DNA of 25,206 nucleotides from a virus: positions 1-25,206 of the IMG/VR virus record IMGVR_UViG_3300050123_000185. One strand, given 5' to 3'. Positions 1 through 25,206 of the stretch are shown here, piece by piece; the first letter of the stretch is position 1; every line of letters starts with the position of its first letter. Position numbers and translations under genes: made by a program. The notes beneath the pieces were generated by a model. That model was given only the letters and a program-made list of their open reading frames with translations, searched no databases and had not been told where the DNA came from.

Positions 1-1530
1 ATGAACGGCTATATTTTGGCACATGATCTGGGCACAAGTGGTGATAAGGCAACCCTGTATGATTGGAACGGCAAACTTTGCTCCAGTGTCTTGTATGAAT
101 ATCCAACCTTTTATCCTCAAGAGGGTCGAGGACGTGTTGAGCAAAACTCCGAAGATTGGTGGAAAGGTGTTTGCACATCCACACACCAGCTGATTTCAAA
201 GTCCGGTATTGCCCCCGAGGGCATTGAATGCATCACGTTCAGCGGTCAGATGATGGGATGCCTGCCTGTCAATCGCGCGGGGGAAACGCTTCGTTCCAGT
301 ATTATCTGGGCGGACATGAGAAGTGAGGAACAGGCTGATACGATGACAAATTTGCTTGGCATGGAGGCTTGTTACAAAATCACCGGGCACCGCATCGGTT
401 CCTCCTATACTGCCGCAAAGATTCTTTGGATTAAGGAAAACGAGCCGGGAATTTATAATAAAACCTATAAGTTTCTGCAAGCCAAGGATTACATTGCACT
501 GAAACTTACCGGAAAATTTGTTACCGACTACAGTGATGCATCCAGTATGAATCTTCTTGATATTGAGAAGAAAGTCTGGTCCCAAGACATTCTTTCCGCT
601 CTCAAGATTGACGAAAATATGCTGCCTGAGCTTCACCGCTCAACCGATATGATCGGCAGGGTCACCTGTGAAGCTGCCCGCGCAGTGGGGCTGCTGGAAG
701 GCACGCCCGTAATTATCGGCGGTGGGGATGGAAGCTGCGCTGCTGTGGGTGCAGGTGCCGTGGAAGAGGGTATCACCTACAACGTCATTGGTACATCCTC
801 ATGGATTGCCTGTGCGACCCGAAAACCCTATCTGGACAAACAAATGCGCACCTTCAACTTTGTTCACCTTGATCCCGATTTTTACACCCCCTGTGGTACG
901 ATGCAGGCAGCAGGGCATTCCATGAGCTGGCTGAAAAACACCTTATGCGGTTCTGAATCTACGCAGGCAAAAGAGCAAAAGCGCAGTGCCTATGCAATTA
1001 TAGATGAAGAAATCCTAAGTTCAGCACCGGGCGCCGGAAAACTTATCTATCTGCCTTATCTGCTGGGTGAAAGATCCCCTCGCTGGAATGCCGATGCAAG
1101 GGGCGCATTTATCGGCTTGACAATGGCAAGCACCAAAGCGGAAATATGCAGAGCAGTGCTTGAGGGTGTGGGCTATAATTTAAAAGTGATTTTAGATGCA
1201 CTCAGCGAATCGGTTCCAATTGAAGCGGTGCATGTGATAGGAGGCGGCGCCAAAAGCGCTGTTTGGCTGCAAATTCTTGCGGATATATGGCAGAAACCTC
1301 TTCTGATTCCGGAATATCTGGAAGAAGCAACCTCAATGGGCGCAGCCGTTTGCGGCGGAGTCGGCGTGGGCATGTTTAAAGACTTCAAAGTGATAAGCCA
1401 GTTCAACAAGGTCAGAAAACAGATTCTGCCGCGCCCTGAAAATGCCTCGATTTACCATAAATTGTATTCCGTGTTTGAGGAATCCTATAAGCAATTGGTT
1501 CCAGTGTATGAGAAGTTAAAATTAATTTAG
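1..1530 (+). CDS. xylB: FGGY-family carbohydrate kinase, xylulokinase-like
   Basis: Cytoplasmic sugar kinase that would phosphorylate a ketopentose, probably D-xylulose, with ATP for entry into the pentose phosphate pathway. Seen in the 509-aa product: N-terminal phosphate-binding motif DLGTSG (residues 9-14), substrate-loop motif GQMMG (82-86), WAD (103-105), the GGGDG motif with the likely catalytic base Asp243, GTSSW (264-268) and the adenosine motif GGGAKS (414-419). The length matches the family (about 480-510 aa). E. coli XylB has GQMHG where this has GQMMG, so the exact sugar is uncertain; a related ketose or sugar alcohol is possible. The ATG is the first base of the window, so the RBS is not visible and the start could lie further upstream. 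The gene is richer in G+C than the phage DNA that follows and is read here as host. Its stop at 1528-1530 lies just before a truncated phage gene. Confidence 0.83.
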   Translation: MNGYILAHDLGTSGDKATLYDWNGKLCSSVLYEYPTFYPQEGRGRVEQNSEDWWKGVCTSTHQLISKSGIAPEGIECITFSGQMMGCLPVNRAGETLRSSIIWADMRSEEQADTMTNLLGMEACYKITGHRIGSSYTAAKILWIKENEPGIYNKTYKFLQAKDYIALKLTGKFVTDYSDASSMNLLDIEKKVWSQDILSALKIDENMLPELHRSTDMIGRVTCEAARAVGLLEGTPVIIGGGDGSCAAVGAGAVEEGITYNVIGTSSWIACATRKPYLDKQMRTFNFVHLDPDFYTPCGTMQAAGHSMSWLKNTLCGSESTQAKEQKRSAYAIIDEEILSSAPGAGKLIYLPYLLGERSPRWNADARGAFIGLTMASTKAEICRAVLEGVGYNLKVILDALSESVPIEAVHVIGGGAKSAVWLQILADIWQKPLLIPEYLEEATSMGAAVCGGVGVGMFKDFKVISQFNKVRKQILPRPENASIYHKLYSVFEESYKQLVPVYEKLKLI

Positions 1531-1619: not shown

Positions 1620-1985
1620 TTGTCTGAAGCCGAAGCTAATAAAGTTATTATCGTTTTAAAGGATATGATGAAGTATAAAAATCATATCGCACCTCTTAAA
1701 AAAGAAAAATCTTCTCCAGTAGAGGTACCCGGTATGGTAACGATCGGGCAGCAGAAAAAAATTTGGTACTTAATGTATCAAATTGAAAAGTGTGATAAAA
1801 CGAAAAGTAAAGCTTCCCTCGGAGATCGCCTTTGTGGTATAATAAAAAGACAATTACATATTGATGCCATATCACAGGCTCCTTTTAAATTCATTAACTT
1901 CAAAAATGGAAATCAGTTAATTGAAATTTTGAAGAAATATGTTGCGAGTGCCCAAGGAAAAGCACAAAGGAGTGATGTGAGTTGA
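1620..1985 (+). CDS. GemA-like regulator (DUF1018), 5'-truncated remnant
   Basis: The product resembles the gp16/GemA (DUF1018) family that sits between the early region and mor in Mu-like phages; its biochemical role is unclear. The C-terminal half (motifs MVTIGQQKKIWYLMYQI, SLGDRLCGIIK, then a NGNQLIEILKKYV helix) is typical of Firmicute members. The frame is open back to 1512, and codons from about 1563 (KDELHQLIERETG) also look like the family, but no ATG, GTG or TTG occurs before TTG 1620, and nothing resembling the usual first 20-30 residues is present. TTG 1620 has no convincing RBS. I therefore read it as a fragment whose 5' end was lost at the junction with the host kinase gene. Its TGA overlaps the TTG start of mor (TTGA), so it may still matter for translational coupling. 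Confidence 0.62.
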   Translation: MSEAEANKVIIVLKDMMKYKNHIAPLKKEKSSPVEVPGMVTIGQQKKIWYLMYQIEKCDKTKSKASLGDRLCGIIKRQLHIDAISQAPFKFINFKNGNQLIEILKKYVASAQGKAQRSDVS

Positions 1986-2302
1986 ACTTGCTCGAACAGA
2001 TTACACTTGACAGCCTTCCGGTCGAACAACGTGAGATTGCCAGTATTGTGGGGATTGAAGCTTATACAAAACTTGTTGAGCAATATGGCGGATGCAATAT
2101 ATATATTTTTAAAGCCGATACACTTCTTAAGGATTTACGAGACGCACAAATTAAAGATGAATTCGATGGCTATAATCATCGGGAACTTGCATTAAAATAT
2201 GATTTAAGCGAAAGGACAATAAGAGATATTGTCTCTGAAATTTCAAAGGGATTAAAAATCAAACAAATTGAAGGGCAAATAAATCTTTTTGATTTGCAAT
2301 AA
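1982..2302 (+). CDS. mor: Mor-family transcriptional activator
   Basis: A 106-aa DNA-binding protein of the Mor/C family, which in Mu activates the middle promoter as a dimer. Seen: an N-terminal part with the family-like stretch EAYTKLVEQYGGCNIYI, which corresponds to the dimerisation region, and a C-terminal helix-turn-helix at about residues 58-82 (YNHRELALKYDLSERTIRDI). Start is TTG 1982, overlapping the gemA stop by 4 nt, with AAAGGAG at 1966-1972 at good spacing. It is followed by a strong hairpin with a T run (2337-2388). In Firmicute Mu-like phages a single Mor usually serves both middle and late activation. Its target here would be expected upstream of the late genes, but I could not identify one with confidence. 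Confidence 0.85.
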   Translation: MNLLEQITLDSLPVEQREIASIVGIEAYTKLVEQYGGCNIYIFKADTLLKDLRDAQIKDEFDGYNHRELALKYDLSERTIRDIVSEISKGLKIKQIEGQINLFDLQ

Positions 2303-3063: not shown

Positions 3064-3606
3064 ATGAGTAATCAGAATAGAAAGCACAGTATAATTGATG
3101 CTTTGTCCCCAGAGCTTAAATGGACTGTTGAGCAAATGCTGCTTACAGGAAGCACATATAACGATATAGTTGATTATCTCGCCGTAAATGATATATCCAT
3201 TTCCATGGCAAGTATCTGCAGATATGCAAAAGCCTATAATGCGAATATCCAAATGCTAAATATCGCGCAGCAGAATTTTGCTCGCATGATGGAAGAGCTT
3301 GATAAGTATCCTGACCTTGACAGTACCGAGGCAATTATTCGGCTTACATCACAAAACGTCTTTAATGCCATTGCAAGCACCGAAGAGGAAGAATGGTCTA
3401 AAATTGATAAGGATAAATTGCTATCATCCGCTCTCGGTCTTGTGCGTGCAGCTGCATATAAGAAAAAAATAGACCTGCAGAATAAAAATGAGCTTGACAC
3501 CGGAATAGAAGCGATTAAATCTATGGCTTTCAAGGCAATGGCAAAAGAAAAGCCGGAACTTTTCAAAGAAGTTTCCGATTATCTTAATAATATGAGGGAT
3601 AAGTAA
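3064..3606 (+). CDS. DUF3486 / Mu gp27-like protein, putative small terminase-like
   Basis: A 180-aa, mostly helical protein of the DUF3486 family (Mu gp27), usually found directly before the large terminase and suspected to act in DNA recognition for packaging. Seen: an opening HSIIDALSPELKWTVEQMLL, then a helix-turn-helix-like segment (about residues 30-60, YNDIVDYLAVNDISISMAS) typical of these proteins, then long helices ending with a conserved-looking IEAIKSMAFKAMAKEKPELF. Start ATG 3064 has an AGGTGAT RBS at about 3055. It overlaps the next gene by one base (TAATG), so the two are probably translationally coupled. Confidence 0.75.
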   Translation: MSNQNRKHSIIDALSPELKWTVEQMLLTGSTYNDIVDYLAVNDISISMASICRYAKAYNANIQMLNIAQQNFARMMEELDKYPDLDSTEAIIRLTSQNVFNAIASTEEEEWSKIDKDKLLSSALGLVRAAAYKKKIDLQNKNELDTGIEAIKSMAFKAMAKEKPELFKEVSDYLNNMRDK

Positions 3607-4109
3607 TGAAATGCTATGTGCTGAAAGTTTTATCCGGTAATGAGATAAAAATTAGCAATAGGCTCCGGCAAGACGGTTTTACAGTTTATGTCCCTCGAGA
3701 AGACCGGCTTATAAGATCTCACGGTCATTGGATTAATCGCGAATATGTTTTATTTACCGGATATGTTTTTATTGATTTGGAATTTTCGGCAGTCTTATAT
3801 CATCAAATCAAAGGCATTATAGGGAATATAAATTTTCTTGAACTTCATGCCGGAAATCCTTCGGCTCTTACTGATCAGGAGCAAGATTACATACATATGA
3901 CATGTAAAACAGAAGAGCCTCTGGTCCCATCCATCGTTGAGATTATAAATAATAAACCTATACCGCTCTCGGGTATCCTTAAGGAGTTTAGCAATTCCGG
4001 AACTTTTATAAAATACAATATTCACAGATGCCAGGCATTTGTCTACATACCTTTTCTTAATGATTTTAAAAGATTGTCGTTCTCTTTCAAAATAGCAAAT
4101 AAAAGCTAA
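3606..4109 (+). CDS. NusG-like transcription antiterminator (LoaP/UpxY-type specialised paralogue)
   Basis: A 167-aa NusG-family protein that would bind RNA polymerase and change its pausing and termination. The NGN domain covers about residues 1-105: opening CYVLKVLSGNE (3-13), then VPREDRLIRSHGHW, YVLFTGYVFIDLE (47-59) and a KIR-like KGIIGNINFL. The C-terminal part (about 115-160) follows the KOW pattern (IPLSGILKEFSNSGTFIKYN, CQAFVYIPFL), though the usual glycines of the KOW turn are partly lost. Unlike housekeeping NusG it is phage-borne and sits immediately before a 219-nt non-coding leader and the head-tail operon, the arrangement expected for operon-specific paralogues such as LoaP and RfaH. 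It starts at ATG 3606 overlapping the gp27-like stop, with GAGGGA just upstream. Confidence 0.85.
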   Translation: MKCYVLKVLSGNEIKISNRLRQDGFTVYVPREDRLIRSHGHWINREYVLFTGYVFIDLEFSAVLYHQIKGIIGNINFLELHAGNPSALTDQEQDYIHMTCKTEEPLVPSIVEIINNKPIPLSGILKEFSNSGTFIKYNIHRCQAFVYIPFLNDFKRLSFSFKIANKS

Positions 4110-4328
4110 TTGATTTATGCGGTTGATTCGTCCTGCATGAAGAAAAGGCGGTTATAAGAAGTCTAATTACCGAGTTTAATAACTTAAGCTCGGATGGCGA
4201 AGCATATTCTATCTAAGCACCCTTTTAAAACCCTTTTAAAAGCTTTTAAATCGCCATAAAAACTAATAATTGGGTAAACATCAAGATTAAGATTTGGAGT
4301 TATATAAGCCATAGAGGGGGGAGTAAAA
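4110..4328 (+). promoter_or_regulatory. Structured non-coding leader between the NusG-like gene and terminase
   Basis: No plausible gene is seen in these 219 nt. The stretch holds a perfect hairpin at 4170-4193 (CCGAGTTTAA, loop TAAC, TTAAGCTCGG; one G-U pair). Directly next to it, ATGGCGA (4194-4200) is exactly complementary to TCGCCAT (4251-4257), enclosing a short tandem repeat. No T run follows either stem, so neither is an ordinary terminator. Position, directly after a NusG-like gene and before the long morphogenesis operon, suggests an RNA recruitment site for that protein (inference by analogy with LoaP-controlled operons, whose leaders carry an RNA hairpin). I found no convincing sigma-A promoter inside it. 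Confidence 0.55.
4220..4250 (+). repeat. Tandem 11-bp repeat with TTTTAAAA palindromes
   Basis: CCCTTTTAAAA occurs twice back to back (4220-4230, 4231-4241), followed by a partial third copy GCTTTTAAA (4242-4250). Each unit centres on a TTTTAAAA or CTTTTAAA palindrome. The 11-bp period is close to one helical turn, which would place the units on the same DNA face; in RNA they would lie in the loop closed by ATGGCGA/TCGCCAT. Confidence 0.75.
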
Positions 4329-5666
4329 TTGATATCAAAAAAGCAAGATAGTATTAATAAGTTATATGAACTTGTTAGTGCTGCAAATTCAAAAAAAGTA
4401 AAATGTAGTAAGAAGATATCTGAGCAAAAAATAAAAAAGATTATATCCCCCTCGTTTTTTGATATACATGAAGATATAAAAGCAGGATTACATACCTACT
4501 ACAAAATTGACGGTGGGCGTGGAAGCTTAAAATCATCATTTGTCAGCGAAGAAATTATAAACGGTATTATGCGTGATGCTTATAATGGCAAAGTTACAAA
4601 TGCATTGATTTTGAGACGCTACAAAGAAAATCTGACGGGCAGCGTTTATGAGCAACTGATATGGGCCATAGACAAGCTGGAAGTATCGGACTTATGGCAC
4701 TCCTCATTAAGTCCACTGGCACTTACTTATTTGCCTACAGGACAAAAGGTTATATTCAGAGGAGCAGACAAACCAACAAAAATAAAATCAATCAAAATCG
4801 CCAAAGGGTATATAAAATATCTTTGGTTTGAAGAACTTGATGAATTCGAAGGCAAAGAAAAAATAAGAAGCATACAACAGTCAATGTTGAGAGGCGGTAA
4901 TGAATTTACCGTCTTTTATTCATATAATCCCCCACGTTCTCAAAGAAGCTGGGTGAATGATCCTGTAAATTTCTCATCTCAAGATATATTATGTCATCAC
5001 AGTACCTATCTAACCGCTCCTCCAGATTGGTTGGGAAAGCAATTCATAGCTGCAGCTGAAGATTTAAAGATATCAAATTATGACGCATATAGGCATGAAT
5101 ATCTTGGTGAGATAACAGGCACAGGCGCTGAAGTCTTTATAAATCTTAAAAATCGCAAACTTACTGATGTTGAGATTAAAGAATTTGACCGCATCCGCAG
5201 AGGCCTTGATTTTGGATTTGCCAGTGATCCGCTTCATTACGCAGAAAGTCATTTTGATAAGACCCGGAAACGCCTATATATTTTCTTCGAGATCCATGCA
5301 ACCCGGATGAGTAATTTTAAACTTACGCAGTTTATCAGGGCAGAAAATAAAGCTAACAAAGAAATTATTGCAGATTCTGCGGAACCAAAGAGCATATCTG
5401 AGATGAATGGTTATGGTCTCCATGTAAGAGGCGCAAAAAAAGGACCCGACAGTGTTGATTACGGTATCAAATGGATGCAGGACCTTAACGAAATAATTAT
5501 TGATGCAGAGCGCTGCCCAAATACCTGGCGCGAATTTTATGGTTATGAACTGGAGCGTGATGCGAACGGCAATCTCAAGGCTGAGTACCCTGACAAAAAC
5601 AACCATAGCATCGATGCAGTCCGATATAGCTTAAATGATGATATAAAAAATGTGAGGGTGGTTTAA
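4329..5666 (+). CDS. terL: Terminase large subunit (XtmB/Terminase_3 type)
   Basis: Packaging motor ATPase and headful/cos nuclease that pumps DNA into the prohead through the portal. The 445-aa product has a Walker A-like GGRGSLKS (residues 62-69), Walker B LWFEELDE (165-172), a coupling-motif candidate SYNPPRS (198-204), and an RNase-H-like nuclease domain with acidic residues D294 (GLDFG), D349 (ADSAEPKS) and D429 (HSIDAVRY). Length and motifs fit PBSX XtmB-type terminases, unlike the Mu gp28 type expected beside a gp27-like gene. Start is TTG 4329 behind an AGAGGGGGGAG RBS at 4313-4322; no better ATG exists upstream. It is the first gene after the structured leader. Confidence 0.9.
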   Translation: MISKKQDSINKLYELVSAANSKKVKCSKKISEQKIKKIISPSFFDIHEDIKAGLHTYYKIDGGRGSLKSSFVSEEIINGIMRDAYNGKVTNALILRRYKENLTGSVYEQLIWAIDKLEVSDLWHSSLSPLALTYLPTGQKVIFRGADKPTKIKSIKIAKGYIKYLWFEELDEFEGKEKIRSIQQSMLRGGNEFTVFYSYNPPRSQRSWVNDPVNFSSQDILCHHSTYLTAPPDWLGKQFIAAAEDLKISNYDAYRHEYLGEITGTGAEVFINLKNRKLTDVEIKEFDRIRRGLDFGFASDPLHYAESHFDKTRKRLYIFFEIHATRMSNFKLTQFIRAENKANKEIIADSAEPKSISEMNGYGLHVRGAKKGPDSVDYGIKWMQDLNEIIIDAERCPNTWREFYGYELERDANGNLKAEYPDKNNHSIDAVRYSLNDDIKNVRVV

Positions 5667-5907: not shown

Positions 5908-7434
5908 ATGTACATAACAGAATTAGATCTTTTAAAGCAAAAACTCAGTATCGAAGGCAAATTAAATATCAGTGAAATCATTAAGAATATCCTTAATGAT
6001 GCTGCCATTGAAGAACGCCGGATTTATATGAATGTTGGTGAGCGTTATTATGAAAATGGTCATGATATACTTTATCATGACTTTCGCTGCTCAACTATAT
6101 ATGATACGGTTGAGGATCCTGATAATTTCGGGCAAACAAAAGATGTTATAAATACAGTTACAAACAATAATAATTCCAATATGCATAATGTTCATAATTT
6201 TCATCAGTTGCAAGTTGACCAAAAAGTTAGTTATATAGCAGGCAAAGCTCCAACAATAAGCGTTGAAAATGATAAAGAATTTGAATCACTGTTAACAAAG
6301 CGCACAACTGATGAAGAATTTCCTGATCTTATATATGATTGGATCGAAGGCGCAAGCAATAAAGGTATTGAATGGATACATGTATATTATGATTTCAATG
6401 GTATTCTACAATATTGCATTGTTCCGGCACAAGAAGTGATTGCATTTTATGATTCTGAACATCAAAAAGAGCTTCAGGATATTGTAAGGTTTTATATGTT
6501 TGATGTTATAAGTAATGGCAAAACTGTTAAACGGCATAAAATCGAGTGGTGGGAAGTTGATAAAGTCACTTATTATATTGAGGATGAGCAGGGCAATTAC
6601 ATGCTTGATCCGTTATACCCTATAAACCCTATGCCGCACTGGTGGGATATTACTACCGTTGACAATATGGAACAAAGCAAAGTGCCGCAAACATGGGGGC
6701 GTGTACCTTTTATCCCTTTGCATAATAACAGTCATGACATAAGTGATCTTTTGCGAAATAAAAGCCTTATAGATGCCTATAACATGATATCATCAACAAG
6801 TACCAACAATCAGATTGATTTGGTTGAATTGTATTGGGTTATACATGGATATGGCGGAGAGACTGCAAAAGCGATTGCAAAAAAGCTGCAGATCAATAAA
6901 TCTGTAAGCATTAATAGTGAAGAAGGTTCTGTGACTGCCCAGCAAATAACTCTCAATGTTGAAGAGCGTGTTAAATGGCTGGAATTGTTAAGACACGATA
7001 TTTATCATTTTGGTATGGCCATTGACACAAGTGATGAGCAGCTCGGCAACAATCCTTCAGGCGTTTCATTAAAATTTAAATACACACAATTGGATTTAAA
7101 AGCCAATCCATTAATATTAAAACTTAAAAAGGCCTTAAAGGATCTATTTTGGTTTATTACAGTTGATATTAATCTTAAAAATAATGCCTCATATGATAGC
7201 AAAAAAATTGTTGTTGCTATTAATAAGTCAATGATAACCAATGACTTAGAGACGGTTAATATGATAAACGCCTCAAAAGGTCTTGTTCCCGATAATCTAT
7301 TGTTAGCAGCTCATCCACTTGTTGAGGATGCCAATCAAGCAGCAATAGATTTAAAGGCCCAGCAGGATGATTTAGATAAACGAAGAGCTAAGTTATTCGG
7401 AAATAATGATATTCCGCCTGGTGGTGAAGATTAA
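5908..7434 (+). CDS. Portal protein (SPP1 gp6-like)
   Basis: The 508-aa product would form the dodecameric portal at the special vertex, docking terminase and joining the tail. Its size and pattern match the SPP1 gp6/Phage_prot_Gp6 family: an early YENGHDILYHDF segment, LQVDQKVSYIAGKAPTI (about residues 108-124), YDWIEGASNKGIEW-HVYYDFNG (about 146-172), IVRFYMFD, WGRVPFIPLHNN (about 261-272), SLIDAYNMISS, and a DEQLGNNPSGVSLKFKYTQL stretch near residue 380-400 ahead of a long helix. Start ATG 5908 follows AGGTGA at about 5893. It overlaps the MuF gene by one base (TAATG), as is common for portal-MuF pairs. Confidence 0.88.
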   Translation: MYITELDLLKQKLSIEGKLNISEIIKNILNDAAIEERRIYMNVGERYYENGHDILYHDFRCSTIYDTVEDPDNFGQTKDVINTVTNNNNSNMHNVHNFHQLQVDQKVSYIAGKAPTISVENDKEFESLLTKRTTDEEFPDLIYDWIEGASNKGIEWIHVYYDFNGILQYCIVPAQEVIAFYDSEHQKELQDIVRFYMFDVISNGKTVKRHKIEWWEVDKVTYYIEDEQGNYMLDPLYPINPMPHWWDITTVDNMEQSKVPQTWGRVPFIPLHNNSHDISDLLRNKSLIDAYNMISSTSTNNQIDLVELYWVIHGYGGETAKAIAKKLQINKSVSINSEEGSVTAQQITLNVEERVKWLELLRHDIYHFGMAIDTSDEQLGNNPSGVSLKFKYTQLDLKANPLILKLKKALKDLFWFITVDINLKNNASYDSKKIVVAINKSMITNDLETVNMINASKGLVPDNLLLAAHPLVEDANQAAIDLKAQQDDLDKRRAKLFGNNDIPPGGED

Positions 7435-8999
7435 TGAATTCCAAGGATTATTGGGAAAAAAGGGCCCTGCAGCGTGAAAATAATACATATAATGAAACAT
7501 CTAAAACAATTGCACGGTTAAAGGTTATATATCAAAAAGCACTTAATCAATTGAATAAGGATTCCGATAGTATTTTTAAAAATTATGTAGGTAAATATGA
7601 TGGAGAAAAAGATGAAACATTAAAATACCTTACATCAAATGAATCTGCTGCTGTTTTGTCCGATTTAAGGAAAAGGGCAAGCCTTATAACTGATTCCGAC
7701 TTAAAAAAAGAGGTTTTAATAAGGCTTGAAGCGCCTGCTTATGGTTTCCGATTAAGCAGAGTAAAAGCAATGCAAAATTATATAATAGCTGAGCTTAATA
7801 AAATCTCCGATCAGGAAAATCAGATTGATGGCAATCACCTTGCAAATGTTTATGAAAATAGCTATTACCGAAATATATATGATACGGCACCACAAATCAA
7901 TGCAAGTTTTTCAATGATTTCCGCTCAGGTGATAAATGAAACTTTAAAAAGCAGCTGGTTGGGTGAAAATTATTCAGAGCGGGTATGGAAAAATACCCAT
8001 GTTTTAGCGCAAGAAGCAAGCGATATTATCCAAAGCGGAATCACATCCGGTAGAAGCATAAAGCAAATGCAGGATGAACTGGCCGATGTCATGGATGTTG
8101 GGAAATATGTTGCTGAGCGGTTAATCCGCACCGAAACCAATTATTTTCATAATCAGGCAGAAATGCAGTCTTATAAATCAATGGGTGTTGAGGAATATAT
8201 TTTCCTTGCCACACTTGACAGCCGTACATGCGCCAGATGCGGGGCATTGGATAAAAAAATATTCAAAGTCAGTGATATTATAGTTGGTGTAAATTATCCG
8301 CCGCTGCACCCTAATGATAGATGTGTAACAACTGCGAATGTAGAATCAGCGGGTAAAAGAATAGCCCGTGACCCAACCACAGGGCGCAATTATTATGTTG
8401 ACCATAATTTATCTTATACCGATTGGAAAAAACAGATTAATGAGAAATATGGTTCAAATACGTTAGAAAAAGCTCAAAAAATGTATTTCAATCGTAAATC
8501 TGATAAAGAAAATCTTGAAAAATATCAGGCGGTTTTAGGTAAGGATGCACCAAAAGCTCTGGCAGATTTTCAGAATATAAAGTATAGCAGTTCTGAAGAA
8601 TGGAAGAAAATTCAGCTTGATTACAGGCGCCGAAACAGATTAGTACAAAATTCTCGATTAGCGTTACCTAATGCCGAAAAAGCAAAGATTGATGAGCCTA
8701 AATTTACAAACTATTTTTTTGGCGGCAATAATAATGATGGACTTTCAAAGGGCATTGCATTTAACAGCCATTTAGGGTACAATATTAGCAACTGGAAAGA
8801 TTTCGAACAGGAAATATTAAGAAAATTGAAAGTTAATCCAGCAACACCTGACCGTATAACTGAGCACGGTTCATATTACAATCAATCAATGATTTTATAC
8901 GGCGTAAAAAATAACCCAATGGATATTAAATTTGTTTGGGAAGTAAAAAACGATATTACAAGGTTTGTAACAGCTTATCCCAATAGGAGTAGTGAATGA
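7434..8999 (+). CDS. MuF head morphogenesis protein with C-terminal toxin-like domain
   Basis: A 521-aa minor head protein. Residues about 1-180 are helical; the MuF core spans about 185-305, with ERLIRTETNYFHN (228-240), the Cys pair of SRTCARCG (263-270) and HPNDRC (292-297), which form the usual zinc motif. The remainder is not needed for a MuF protein: residues about 409-518 (PNAEKAKIDEPKFTNYFF, GIAFNSHLGYN, MILYG, a final RFVTAYP) resemble DUF6883/BECR-type toxin domains that are attached to MuF proteins in temperate phages and to polymorphic toxins. The immediately downstream 55-aa ORF fits a cognate immunity protein. MuF proteins are packaged in the head, so the domain could be injected with DNA (inference). 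Start ATG 7434 overlaps the portal stop. Confidence 0.85.
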   Translation: MNSKDYWEKRALQRENNTYNETSKTIARLKVIYQKALNQLNKDSDSIFKNYVGKYDGEKDETLKYLTSNESAAVLSDLRKRASLITDSDLKKEVLIRLEAPAYGFRLSRVKAMQNYIIAELNKISDQENQIDGNHLANVYENSYYRNIYDTAPQINASFSMISAQVINETLKSSWLGENYSERVWKNTHVLAQEASDIIQSGITSGRSIKQMQDELADVMDVGKYVAERLIRTETNYFHNQAEMQSYKSMGVEEYIFLATLDSRTCARCGALDKKIFKVSDIIVGVNYPPLHPNDRCVTTANVESAGKRIARDPTTGRNYYVDHNLSYTDWKKQINEKYGSNTLEKAQKMYFNRKSDKENLEKYQAVLGKDAPKALADFQNIKYSSSEEWKKIQLDYRRRNRLVQNSRLALPNAEKAKIDEPKFTNYFFGGNNNDGLSKGIAFNSHLGYNISNWKDFEQEILRKLKVNPATPDRITEHGSYYNQSMILYGVKNNPMDIKFVWEVKNDITRFVTAYPNRSSE

Positions 9000-9163
9000 T
9001 GGATATTAAAGAATTTGATAGAGTACGCCTTAAAGACGGTCGGGAAGGTACAATAGTTTGTATTTGTGAGCCTGATAAATTGTACTCTCTTGATATTGGC
9101 ACAGCTCCGGGGACGTGGGATAATATTTTTATTAAACCAGAAGAAATCGAAAAACGGATTTAA
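8996..9163 (+). CDS. Small SH3-like protein, putative immunity protein for the MuF toxin domain
   Basis: A 55-aa ORF that is easy to miss because of its length. It starts at ATG 8996 (or 8999) behind AGGAG at 8985-8989, and its start overlaps the MuF stop (ATGATGA). The product (FDRVRLKDGREGTIVCI, then LYSLDIG, ending NIFIKPEEIEKRI) has the pattern of a small SH3-like barrel similar to DUF4926: a 'D.V.LKDG..GTIV' opening and a terminal 'I.PEEIE' strand. DUF4926-type proteins are often found beside DUF6883-like domains. Overlap with the toxin-bearing gene and a terminator straight after the stop suggest a toxin-immunity pair. Assignment is by pattern only. Confidence 0.66.
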   Translation: MMDIKEFDRVRLKDGREGTIVCICEPDKLYSLDIGTAPGTWDNIFIKPEEIEKRI

Positions 9164-9191
9164 CCACTTTCAGCAATGATGGTGGTTTTTT
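9162..9191 (+). terminator. Intrinsic terminator overlapping the immunity stop codon
   Basis: Stem AACCAC (9162-9167) with GTGGTT (9182-9187), 14-nt loop, followed by TTTT (9188-9191). It begins inside the TAA stop of the 55-aa ORF. Confidence 0.55.
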
Positions 9192-9200
9192 CATGCCGAT

Positions 9201-9226
9201 TAGCCGCTTATTAGCGGTTATTTTTT
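9201..9226 (+). terminator. Second intrinsic terminator before the scaffold gene
   Basis: Stem TAGCCGC (9201-9207) with GCGGTTA (9214-9220, one G-U pair), 6-nt loop TTATTA, then TTTTTT (9221-9226). Together with the hairpin at 9162 it forms a double terminator inside the head operon. Confidence 0.75.
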
Positions 9227-13272: not shown

Positions 13273-13300
13273 TTGGGGGCTTTTGCCCCCAAATTTAATA
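13273..13300 (+). terminator. GC-rich hairpin after the tail tube gene
   Basis: TTGGGGGC (13273-13280), loop TTTT, GCCCCCAA (13285-13292), followed by ATTTAATA. The stem is strong, the T run poor. It could act as a partial terminator or a 3' stabiliser that gives more tube than downstream message. Confidence 0.6.
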
Positions 13301-19732: not shown

Positions 19733-19762
19733 AAAAGCTCTTACCAAATGGTAGGGGCTTTT
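19733..19762 (+). terminator. Terminator after the moron
   Basis: 13-bp stem AAAAGCTCTTACC (19733-19745) with GGTAGGGGCTTTT (19750-19762; three G-U pairs), loop AAAT, with the T run inside the 3' arm. Confidence 0.72.
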
Positions 19763-19772
19763 GTTATGCTCA

Positions 19773-19798
19773 AAGCGCCTTAAAAGGCGTTATTTTTA
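19773..19798 (+). terminator. Second terminator after the moron
   Basis: AGCGCC with GGCGTT (about 19774-19790; one G-U pair) around TTAAAA, then ATTTTTATA. It ends just before the AAGGAGGT RBS of the fibre gene, like the double terminator at 9162-9226. Confidence 0.62.
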
Positions 19799-20722: not shown

Positions 20723-21085
20723 ATGAAACAAGTAATAAAAATTGATACTAACGGATTGTTTGTTGGAGATGTTATTCTGGAGGATGCAGACATTATGCCA
20801 AATGATTGTATTGAGATACCATGTCCTGAAGGATTTTATAAGCCAAAATGGGATGGTACACAATGGGTTGAGGGTATGTCGCAGACCGATATTGATATTT
20901 TAAGCAAAGCAACGCAAATTTCCGACATTAAATCTCAACTTGCAAACTTAGACACGGTACTACCTCGAAGTGTGGAGGATTTAATAACTTCTCAAAAAAC
21001 AGATATTACAACGCTTCCACAGATTATGCAGGACAGATTAAAACAAAAGCAGGCTTTAAGACAGTCGTTAAACGCTCAGAAATGA
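20723..21085 (+). CDS. Fibre-associated protein (XkdW/YorD-like)
   Basis: A 120-aa protein. The first half (VIKIDTNGLFVGDVIL, IEIPCPEGFYKPKWDGTQWVEGM; residues about 3-55) is the pattern of SP-beta YorD and PBSX XkdW-like proteins found next to fibre genes. The second half is helical and Gln/Leu-rich (ISDIKSQLANLD, TLPQIMQDRLKQKQALRQSL). It probably decorates or helps assemble the fibre. ATG 20723 has AGGAGGA at 20708-20714; the frame extends to 20681 but that overlaps the fibre gene and has no RBS. The stop codon lies in a hairpin. Confidence 0.7.
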   Translation: MKQVIKIDTNGLFVGDVILEDADIMPNDCIEIPCPEGFYKPKWDGTQWVEGMSQTDIDILSKATQISDIKSQLANLDTVLPRSVEDLITSQKTDITTLPQIMQDRLKQKQALRQSLNAQK

Positions 21086-21096
21086 GCGCTTTTCTT
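21073..21096 (+). terminator. Hairpin with T-rich tail after the fibre-associated gene
   Basis: CGCTCA (21073-21078), GAAA tetraloop, TGAGCG (21083-21088), then CTTTTCTT. It covers the TGA stop. The stem is short, so termination may be partial. Confidence 0.5.
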
Positions 21097-24466: not shown

Positions 24467-24514
24467 AACTACTTTTAAAGGCTTTTTAAAGTTTCTTTAA
24501 AAGTAGTTTTATTT
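24461..24514. terminator. Bidirectional terminator: 20-bp perfect inverted repeat
   Basis: 24461-24480 is exactly complementary to 24495-24514 (core ACTACTTTTAAAG / CTTTAAAAGTAGT), loop of 14 nt. TTTTATTTA on the right and AAATAAAA on the left give T-rich tails in both directions. It lies between the XRE gene and the convergent minus-strand host fragment, and contains the stop of the latter. Three CTTT(T)AAA cores (24472-24503) recall the tandem repeat at 4220-4250. Confidence 0.7.
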
Positions 24515-25206
24515 ATTAGATTTTTTGCAAATAGTGCGCAAATTTTTTGCAGTTTATCCGCAAAGCAACAATCGCCCCAGTATTTTTTAATTGTCATGTT
24601 TTTATTTTGACCATCAAAGATTAAATTTTCAAAATAGATATGATCTTTGCTAATGTTATATCGATTAATCGTACCAGTATTCGGATCATCTATTCTTGCA
24701 TTTTTAGTAATAGTTGTCATTGGTTCGCCATTAGAATCACGATTCAAGCCGACTAGAGACAGATTAACTTTTGAAAAGCGATCATATGCATCCGAATTAC
24801 TGTCATTATAAGTTCCGTCATCAAAGAAAACAGTTGAATTGTCTGTGAAAAAACTGCTAGCAGCGTTGATATCGCTACCATAATATACGCCTTTCAGCGG
24901 ATAAGATTTTCCCTGATACGATATTGATGTTAGTGTTGAATTTGCTGATACATTTGTGATAAGATAATACTTTGGCGATCCGTCAGAAAAGGTATTTGTT
25001 GGAGCCGCATAGGATGTTGAAGACTCCGTTGATACATCAAATGCTCCGCTGACCAGAGGCTGTTTCACACTTGTATTCACATCAGCGGAAGCTGACGCGA
25101 ATACAGGGATTGAAGTGAATACCATTAGTAACGCTAAAATACATGATATCGACTTCATTTTGCGTTTCTTCGTACGAGTGAAAAAATCTGCTTCGTCCTT
25201 GTTCAT
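24475..25206 (-). pseudogene. Secreted protein gene interrupted by the prophage right end (5' fragment)
   Basis: The visible frame gives 243 residues from the window edge: a charged start, a signal peptide (MKSISCILALLMVFTSIPVFA, residues about 17-37, cleavage near ASA), a Ser/Thr-rich stretch, then a beta-rich domain (YLITNVSANSTLTSISY, SSFFTDNSTVFFDDGTY, FENLIFDGQNKNMTI) typical of right-handed beta-helix/pectate-lyase-like wall or polysaccharide proteins. From residue 210 (W, codon TGG at 24579-24577) the codons come from the phage end; the Lys/Asn-rich tail (34 residues) is unlike the rest. The remaining part of the gene is not in this window. The real start may be ATG codon 17 or outside. 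Confidence 0.7.
24521..24564. repeat. Two abutting 22-bp direct repeats: candidate transposase-binding sites of the right end
   Basis: 24521-24542 and 24543-24564 both begin TTTTTTGCA and end CGCAAA; 16 of 22 positions agree, and there is no gap between them. In Mu-type phages the transposase binds 22-bp sites, of which R1 and R2 are adjacent near the right end. A CA dinucleotide stands 15 bp outside (24578-24579), equal to the TG-start required at the ends when read inward. This identifies the likely attR. Confidence 0.68.

Follow-up and report, generated by a model that had tools for sequence, protein, structure and literature searches.

Why would a phage carry a gene for a NusG paralogue between the genes for its two terminase subunits, and what lies in the gap that follows it? 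The locus was found in IMG/VR record IMGVR_UViG_3300050123_000185 (positions 1-25,206), and this whole 25,206-nt stretch is called the window here. In Bacillus velezensis, the NusG paralogue LoaP binds a UNCG hairpin, which is needed for readthrough in vivo and in vitro, and LoaP counteracts NusA at intrinsic terminators without further factors (PMC12691694). By analogy, the phage cassette would be a branch of LoaP processive antitermination with RAGATH-28, an RNA family detected in the gap, as its loading site. We give this reading a probability of about 0.8.

Layout of the locus

The following features of the window were annotated around the gene:

1982-2302, plus strand: Mor/C-family late transcription activator (Pfam Mor, 61.9 bits; phrog_836)
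3064-3606, plus strand: terminase small subunit (TerS), Mu Gp27-like (Pfam Phage_Mu_Gp27, 45.6 bits; phrog_426)
3606-4109, plus strand: NusG paralogue, LoaP-type (NGN and KOW domains), 167 aa (Pfam, PHROG, NCBIfam, AlphaFold model)
4117-4203, plus strand: RAGATH-28 RNA, proposed loading site of the NusG paralogue (cmscan; adjoins the NusG gene in all credible relatives)
4220-4250, no strand assigned: three CCCTTTTAAAA-type repeats between RAGATH-28 and terL (repeat and spacing analysis)
4329-5666, plus strand: terminase large subunit (TerL), the first gene 3' of the RNA (Pfam Terminase_3, 125.9 bits; TIGR01547 above cut-off)

The NusG-like ORF starts at 3606, which is the last base of the terS stop codon. 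The 219 nt at 4110-4328 contain no gene, as originally predicted. The Mor/C-family activator presumably drives the operon that holds the NusG gene.

The gap encodes a covarying RNA

Using cmscan, RAGATH-28 (RF03052) was detected at 4117-4203 over its full length (1-85) with 61.8 bits and an E-value of 1.9e-8. This covariance-model score is above the gathering score of 45.3 and places the RNA in the family. The original prediction described a different unit, a perfect 10-bp hairpin with a TAAC loop (4170-4193) followed by a 7-bp pair (4194-4200/4251-4257). That hairpin is the 3' half of RAGATH-28, and the conserved RNA starts further upstream, at 4115-4117, where a UNCG hairpin had been overlooked. 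The RNA has these parts:

4117-4138, plus strand: 5' hairpin with a 6-bp stem, a UU bulge, G-C and A-U pairs and a UUCG tetraloop at 4127-4130 (outer stem present in folds)
4147-4156, plus strand: GGCGGUUAUA, the counterpart of the relatives' GGNCAUA segment (alignments)
4170-4193, plus strand: 3' hairpin, 10 bp, TAAC loop (folds; conserved in relatives)
4192-4203, plus strand: GGAUGGCGAAGC, the most conserved segment (UGGCGNAGC), common to cellular loaP loci (alignments)

The 10-bp stem and the TAAC loop were described correctly, but one pair is G-U and the hairpin is not perfect. The two sides of the 7-bp pair are exact complements in the window, which is alone in this among 44 distinct loci. 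The free-energy fold pairs 4249-4255 with 4147-4153. The 7-bp pair, found in 1 of 44 loci, was rejected as part of the motif.

Conservation was examined in the 44 loci where a simple rule recognises both motifs. The tetraloop was UUCG in 30 loci, UGCG in 5, UACG in 5, UCCG in 3 and CUCG in 1, so that the UNCG rule was kept in 43 of 44 with all four bases found at the free second position, and the UGGCGNAGC segment was almost invariant; such counts of motif letters are biased upward because the loci were selected partly by these motifs. The stem letters played no part in the selection, apart from the share of the covariance models, and the outer stem of the 5' hairpin kept a mean of 5.4 of 6 pairs with varied pair types, compared with 3.3 when arms were swapped between loci. 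At least five outer-stem pairs were formed in 89% of the loci, compared with 17% when the arms came from different loci. Covariation in related loci had been proposed as a check of the original prediction, and the stems of RAGATH-28 do covary among relatives. Loss of the 3' hairpin in relatives had been set beforehand as grounds for giving up the prediction; the hairpin was at its place in 33 of 44 loci, compared with 5.2 in shuffles.

Pairing of the UNCG loop with CGNAGC to form a pseudoknot was considered and rejected, as the N of the tetraloop and the N of the motif vary independently (UGCG occurs with CGAA in L021, L028 and L059). Several type II hammerhead ribozymes were seen in phage loci that bear RAGATH-28 (six in L012, others in L016 and L007), and none scored above threshold in the window with the Rfam covariance models.

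The gene and the RNA occur together

The association of gene and RNA was found in both directions. A DNA pattern made from the RNA's two conserved ends alone recovered 11 viral and 5 genomic loci, and each of these 16 is closely preceded, on the same strand, by a NusG-like ORF. An Rfam search of Clostridia genomes found sites in 5 of 391 genomes at the class level, in 23 of 397 genomes from the family of G013 and in 2 of 299 from that of G015, many of them scoring under the gathering score. Every fetched site adjoined a NusG-like ORF, and in the G013 family the search gave 25 sites in 23 genomes with this ORF upstream. No RAGATH-28 site was found in 14 control genomes at E 0.001. In the reverse direction, a protein profile search alone gave 32 viral loci, and the RNA was directly 3' of the NusG-like gene in every tested profile-found locus with an uncut contig. 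Diverged loci (L040, L047 and L050-L054) agree with the coupling, with weak RNA scores of 17-31 bits. A direct query of viral contigs with the window protein found nothing, because the sequences have diverged.

At 90% protein identity, the phage-type set comprised 49 distinct loci, and L088 was added later; L044 ends at a contig edge and L026 partly duplicates L025. The usual order is TerS-NusG-RNA-TerL. TerS was adjacent in 46 of the 49 distinct loci, and of the remaining three, L065 is cut, L050 has a TerS by Pfam and L023 is cellular. TerL was seen downstream in 28 loci, a count mostly limited by the length of flank fetched. Rather than the one-phage system first proposed, the cassette represents a widespread class, with gene and RNA coupled at some 49 distinct loci. 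The two are inseparable across roughly 50 related phages, and for this reason the RNA is most likely a docking site, from which the protein would take RNA polymerase through stop signals in the virion genes. Candidate sites acting in trans elsewhere in host genomes were weak. Two of them, L125 and L128, sit at coding ORFs or within them, and inspection by eye revealed no such RNA at L127. All three were taken as chance matches.

Related RNA is found at cellular loaP genes

A related RNA was found at four cellular loaP loci (L085, L086, L112 and L023). Three of the LoaP genes, which score above the curated cut-off, come from two genomes (L085 and L112 in G015, L086 in G102), and the UGGCGNAGC segment and parts of the remaining RNA are in loaP's own leader. 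At L023, LoaP (176 bits) is followed by the related RNA and then by a gene that we read, from its start, as a capsule-type phosphatase; no terminase was seen at this locus. The RNA scores of single cellular sites are weak (17-22 bits, E 0.001-0.08 per genome), and the sites are credible because they are positioned at loaP. No related RNA was found at three thermophile-like LoaP loci (L082-L084).

The position of these sites suggests that RAGATH-28-like RNA is a general LoaP recognition RNA. We would put slightly better than even odds on a broader version, in which RAGATH-28 and its cellular cousins would serve as general recognition RNA for a large LoaP-like NusG superclass in Clostridia. Phages would use the RNA to gate packaging and morphogenesis, and cells would use it at capsule or polysaccharide loci. 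The shared UGGCGNAGC would touch the same part of the elongation complex in each case, and specificity would come from the loop of the 5' hairpin.

Terminators follow the RNA and occur in the late operon

If the RNA loads an antiterminator, the targets would be intrinsic terminators downstream. A rough terminator count in the leaders gave 33 forward, 29 reverse and 18.3 shuffled. As this count was not strand-specific, a stricter definition was applied: a hairpin of -9 kcal/mol or lower followed by TTTTT, within 250 nt after the RNA. With this rule, which was picked after the first result was known, 24 of 44 leaders had a terminator, compared with 9 on the reverse strand and a mean of 3.35 (maximum 7) in shuffles. 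In a subset (L003, L017, L024, L035, L039 and L080), the 5' arm of the terminator lies inside RAGATH-28. A long-range helix that closes on the 3' hairpin was also considered as a conserved feature. It was strong in these same six loci, where it forms a terminator, and absent or at chance in most other loci, including the window (z about 0), and it was rejected as a general part of the RNA. The hexamer TTACAG was observed in the first 150 nt beyond the RNA in 14 of 44 leaders, compared with 1.2 in shuffles, often just before the terminator hairpin.

The leader of the window has no clear U-tract terminator after the RNA in either the strict or the rough scan, which counts against LoaP-type antitermination. 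Further down, at least five terminator-like hairpins had been predicted in the operon. The hairpin scan found six in late-operon gaps, with positions adjusted:

9162-9187, plus strand: intrinsic-terminator-like hairpin
9201-9220, plus strand: intrinsic-terminator-like hairpin
13273-13292, plus strand: terminator-like hairpin, 8 bp with 6 G-C pairs and a weak U-tract
19734-19761, plus strand: intrinsic-terminator-like hairpin
19774-19791, plus strand: intrinsic-terminator-like hairpin
21073-21088, plus strand: intrinsic-terminator-like hairpin

Over the whole region, the number of terminator-like hairpins was not above chance (13, compared with 14.2 in shuffles). Five sites have at least 4 G-C pairs, and four of these five are both on the plus strand and in or at the edge of gaps, which make up 3.4% of the operon. 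In the late operons of relatives, noncoding gaps hold 1-3 terminator-like hairpins per 16-20 kb. These few gap hairpins count against LoaP-type antitermination. A terminator-laden late operon is therefore no general rule, and a long-range target is best supported in the window and in the leaders.

These terminators bear on whether the RNA could act purely locally, as feedback on how much of the NusG paralogue or of TerL is made, with no processive antitermination along the operon. The leader terminators are close to the RNA, and in cellular loaP genes the RNA sits in loaP's own leader, both of which fit such feedback. In the phages, the RNA lies 3' of the gene, a position that makes simple feedback through a leader unlikely for this gene, and intergenic terminators are found further down the operon of the window. 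We consider local feedback alone unlikely.

The protein is closest to LoaP

The product of 3606-4109 matched the Pfam NusG/NGN family with 40.4 bits, and its PHROG match was PHROG 6386, "transcription antiterminator". Among NCBIfam models the best was LoaP (NF033641) with 72.8 bits, followed by UpxY (33.3), NusG (26) and RfaH (17.9, with a cut-off of 144.5). The LoaP score is under the curated cut-off of 125, a divergence that counts against LoaP-type antitermination in the window, and relatives that share the RNA and the gene order do score above it (L049, 157.9; L053, 162.9; L055, 166.6). We therefore call the window protein LoaP-like, not LoaP. In a tree from which RfaH, UpxY and TaA were left out, housekeeping NusG was split off by a 100/100 branch and curated LoaP rows fell among the phage rows at two places; the window sequence forms a long branch of unsure placement.

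A template-free AlphaFold model of the protein had a pLDDT of 93.3, and its C-terminal domain is predicted as a beta-rich KOW fold. With Foldseek and VIA-align, the model ranked the NusG-RNA complex 8f5g first (Z 18.6, 2.0 A, 163 residues, both domains). The next structure had a Z of 13.3, and most other NusG and RfaH structures superpose on the NGN domain alone. The family profile scored 137.8 bits against 8f5g and 90 bits against NusG. Judging by its title, date and sequence, 8f5g is probably the LoaP-RNA structure cited in PMC12691694. By profile and by predicted fold, the closest NusG subfamily of the window protein is LoaP. The predicted NGN domain was thus borne out, and the KOW domain called degenerate is so in sequence but not in the predicted fold.

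Residues of LoaP were aligned through 8f5g, with the B. velezensis numbering mapped by inference. On this alignment, the arginine at LoaP R41 (R37 in the window) is invariant in 23 phage sequences. At the position of LoaP E40, some members have E and others I or V; the window protein has I36 there, which counts against LoaP-type antitermination.

The original label was LoaP/RfaH-type, and an RfaH-like protein would load at a paused polymerase and mainly couple transcription to translation or block Rho, with RAGATH-28 only as a pause or loading signal. The NGN domain is common to RfaH, and blocking Rho would also benefit a phage. The model lacks the helical KOW hairpin of free RfaH, although a prediction may capture a fold switcher in just one of its states. 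The arrangement of the two domains in the model fits the LoaP-RNA complex. With the RfaH score far below that of LoaP and a conserved site that is RNA with covariation and not a short DNA of the ops kind, we find RfaH-like action decidedly unlikely; the LoaP half of the label fits.

Phased repeats lie beside the RNA

After the RNA, at least two CCGTTTAAAA-like repeats were found in 29 of 44 loci (mean 1.9, compared with 0.4 in shuffles). In the window and its relatives, CCNTTTAAAA-type repeats are spaced at about 10.5, 21 and 32 bp, i.e., they are helically phased. Of the spacings between neighbouring copies, 43 of 45 were within 1.5 of a multiple of 10.5, with a best period of 10.6, a count that overstates independence because the loci share ancestry. 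This phasing means that the repeats are probably a DNA element and not part of the RNA, and it points to DNA bound on one face. Given their location between terS and terL, the repeats are a candidate packaging site and could possibly be the pac or cos site of the phage.

That the RNA segment itself is a pac/cos site recognised by the small terminase, its RNA-like look being secondary, would fit a place between terS and terL with phased repeats right beside it, but is very unlikely, as its stems covary and its tetraloop keeps the UNCG rule, a related element is found at cellular loaP loci (before the capsule-type gene at L023, where no terminase was seen, and in the leaders of L085, L086 and L112), and the repeats are separate, downstream and not obvious in cellular loaP leaders.

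Proposed mechanism

Coupling, covariation and the match to 8f5g strongly support the core of the prediction, in which a NusG paralogue and its own cis RNA target the morphogenesis operon. The steps beyond this (binding of the RNA, loading on the polymerase, antagonism of NusA, and readthrough) are inferred by analogy with B. velezensis LoaP. The transcript of the operon for packaging and morphogenesis would yield the NusG paralogue, and RAGATH-28 would emerge just downstream of its gene, between terS and terL. Both domains of the protein would take part in recognising the UNCG hairpin while the RNA is being made; the NGN domain would dock on the polymerase making that RNA, and NusA would be counteracted. 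The polymerase would then be carried past intrinsic terminators, in the leader in most relatives and between virion genes in the window. Transcripts would stop early until there is enough protein, and in this way the cassette would time the late genes or set a threshold for them. The layout suggests a two-step late switch, in which the Mor-family activator (1982-2302) would act first and antitermination second.

Comparison with known systems

The closest known system is LoaP at the dfn operon of B. velezensis (PMC12691694; 8f5g). Both have a NusG paralogue with NGN and KOW domains in a matching predicted fold and domain arrangement, a hairpin of the UNCG class (the match to the dfn hairpin rests on the UNCG description only) and, in most phage relatives, an intrinsic terminator after the hairpin; the arginine at R41 is shared by all 23 phage sequences. 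The phage system differs in that it is phage-encoded between terminase genes, its RNA is larger (two hairpins and the UGGCGNAGC segment) and this RNA comes just after the gene, whereas that of LoaP is in the leader of a biosynthetic operon. Many phage members have I or V in place of E40, and the window member is under the LoaP cut-off.

The other specialised NusG paralogues of long operons are RfaH/ops, UpxY, ActX and TaA. RfaH recognises non-template DNA, RfaH and UpxY score below LoaP, and the literature examined on these proteins describes no such RNA.

Lambda N/nut, Q/qut and HK022 put are also phage antitermination systems that load at a site, RNA or DNA, within the operon they protect. 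The N and Q proteins are unrelated to the window protein, and put works without a protein; in the phages described here, a NusG-fold protein would play the part of N. The window protein matched no Q or N family among Pfam, PHROGs and NCBIfam, and the system, first taken as a variation on Q/N-type control, is better described as a putative variation on LoaP.

The RNA belongs to RAGATH-28 by covariance model, well above the gathering score. Its Rfam type is gene/sRNA only, and here the family is tied to a NusG paralogue with a proposed function. A literature search, the scope of which did not extend to the original RAGATH description, returned no paper on RAGATH-28 and none joining RAGATH with NusG or LoaP. 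What appears to be new is that phages would use antitermination of the LoaP type, with a proposed site that belongs to an orphan RNA family. If this reading is correct, an RNA family listed only as sRNA gains a function, and Gram-positive phages gain a protein-plus-RNA route of late-gene antitermination comparable to lambda N/nut. The large set of phage relatives, each with a putative RNA target beside the gene, also provides dozens of natural protein-RNA pairs for the study of RNA recognition by NusG paralogues.

Other features of the window

Among the window genes searched, no integrase or transposase was seen. An FGGY carbohydrate kinase directly precedes a GemA-like ORF and the Mor gene (window 1-1530, 1620-1985 and the 24475-25206 region). 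These two observations suggest that the left end of the prophage may be cut or decayed. In the tail region, the C-terminal domain of the protein encoded at 12564-13268 matches the S-layer SbsC C-terminal family. The Mu F-like head protein encoded at 7434-8999 has a C-terminal DUF6883 domain, a domain of unknown function.
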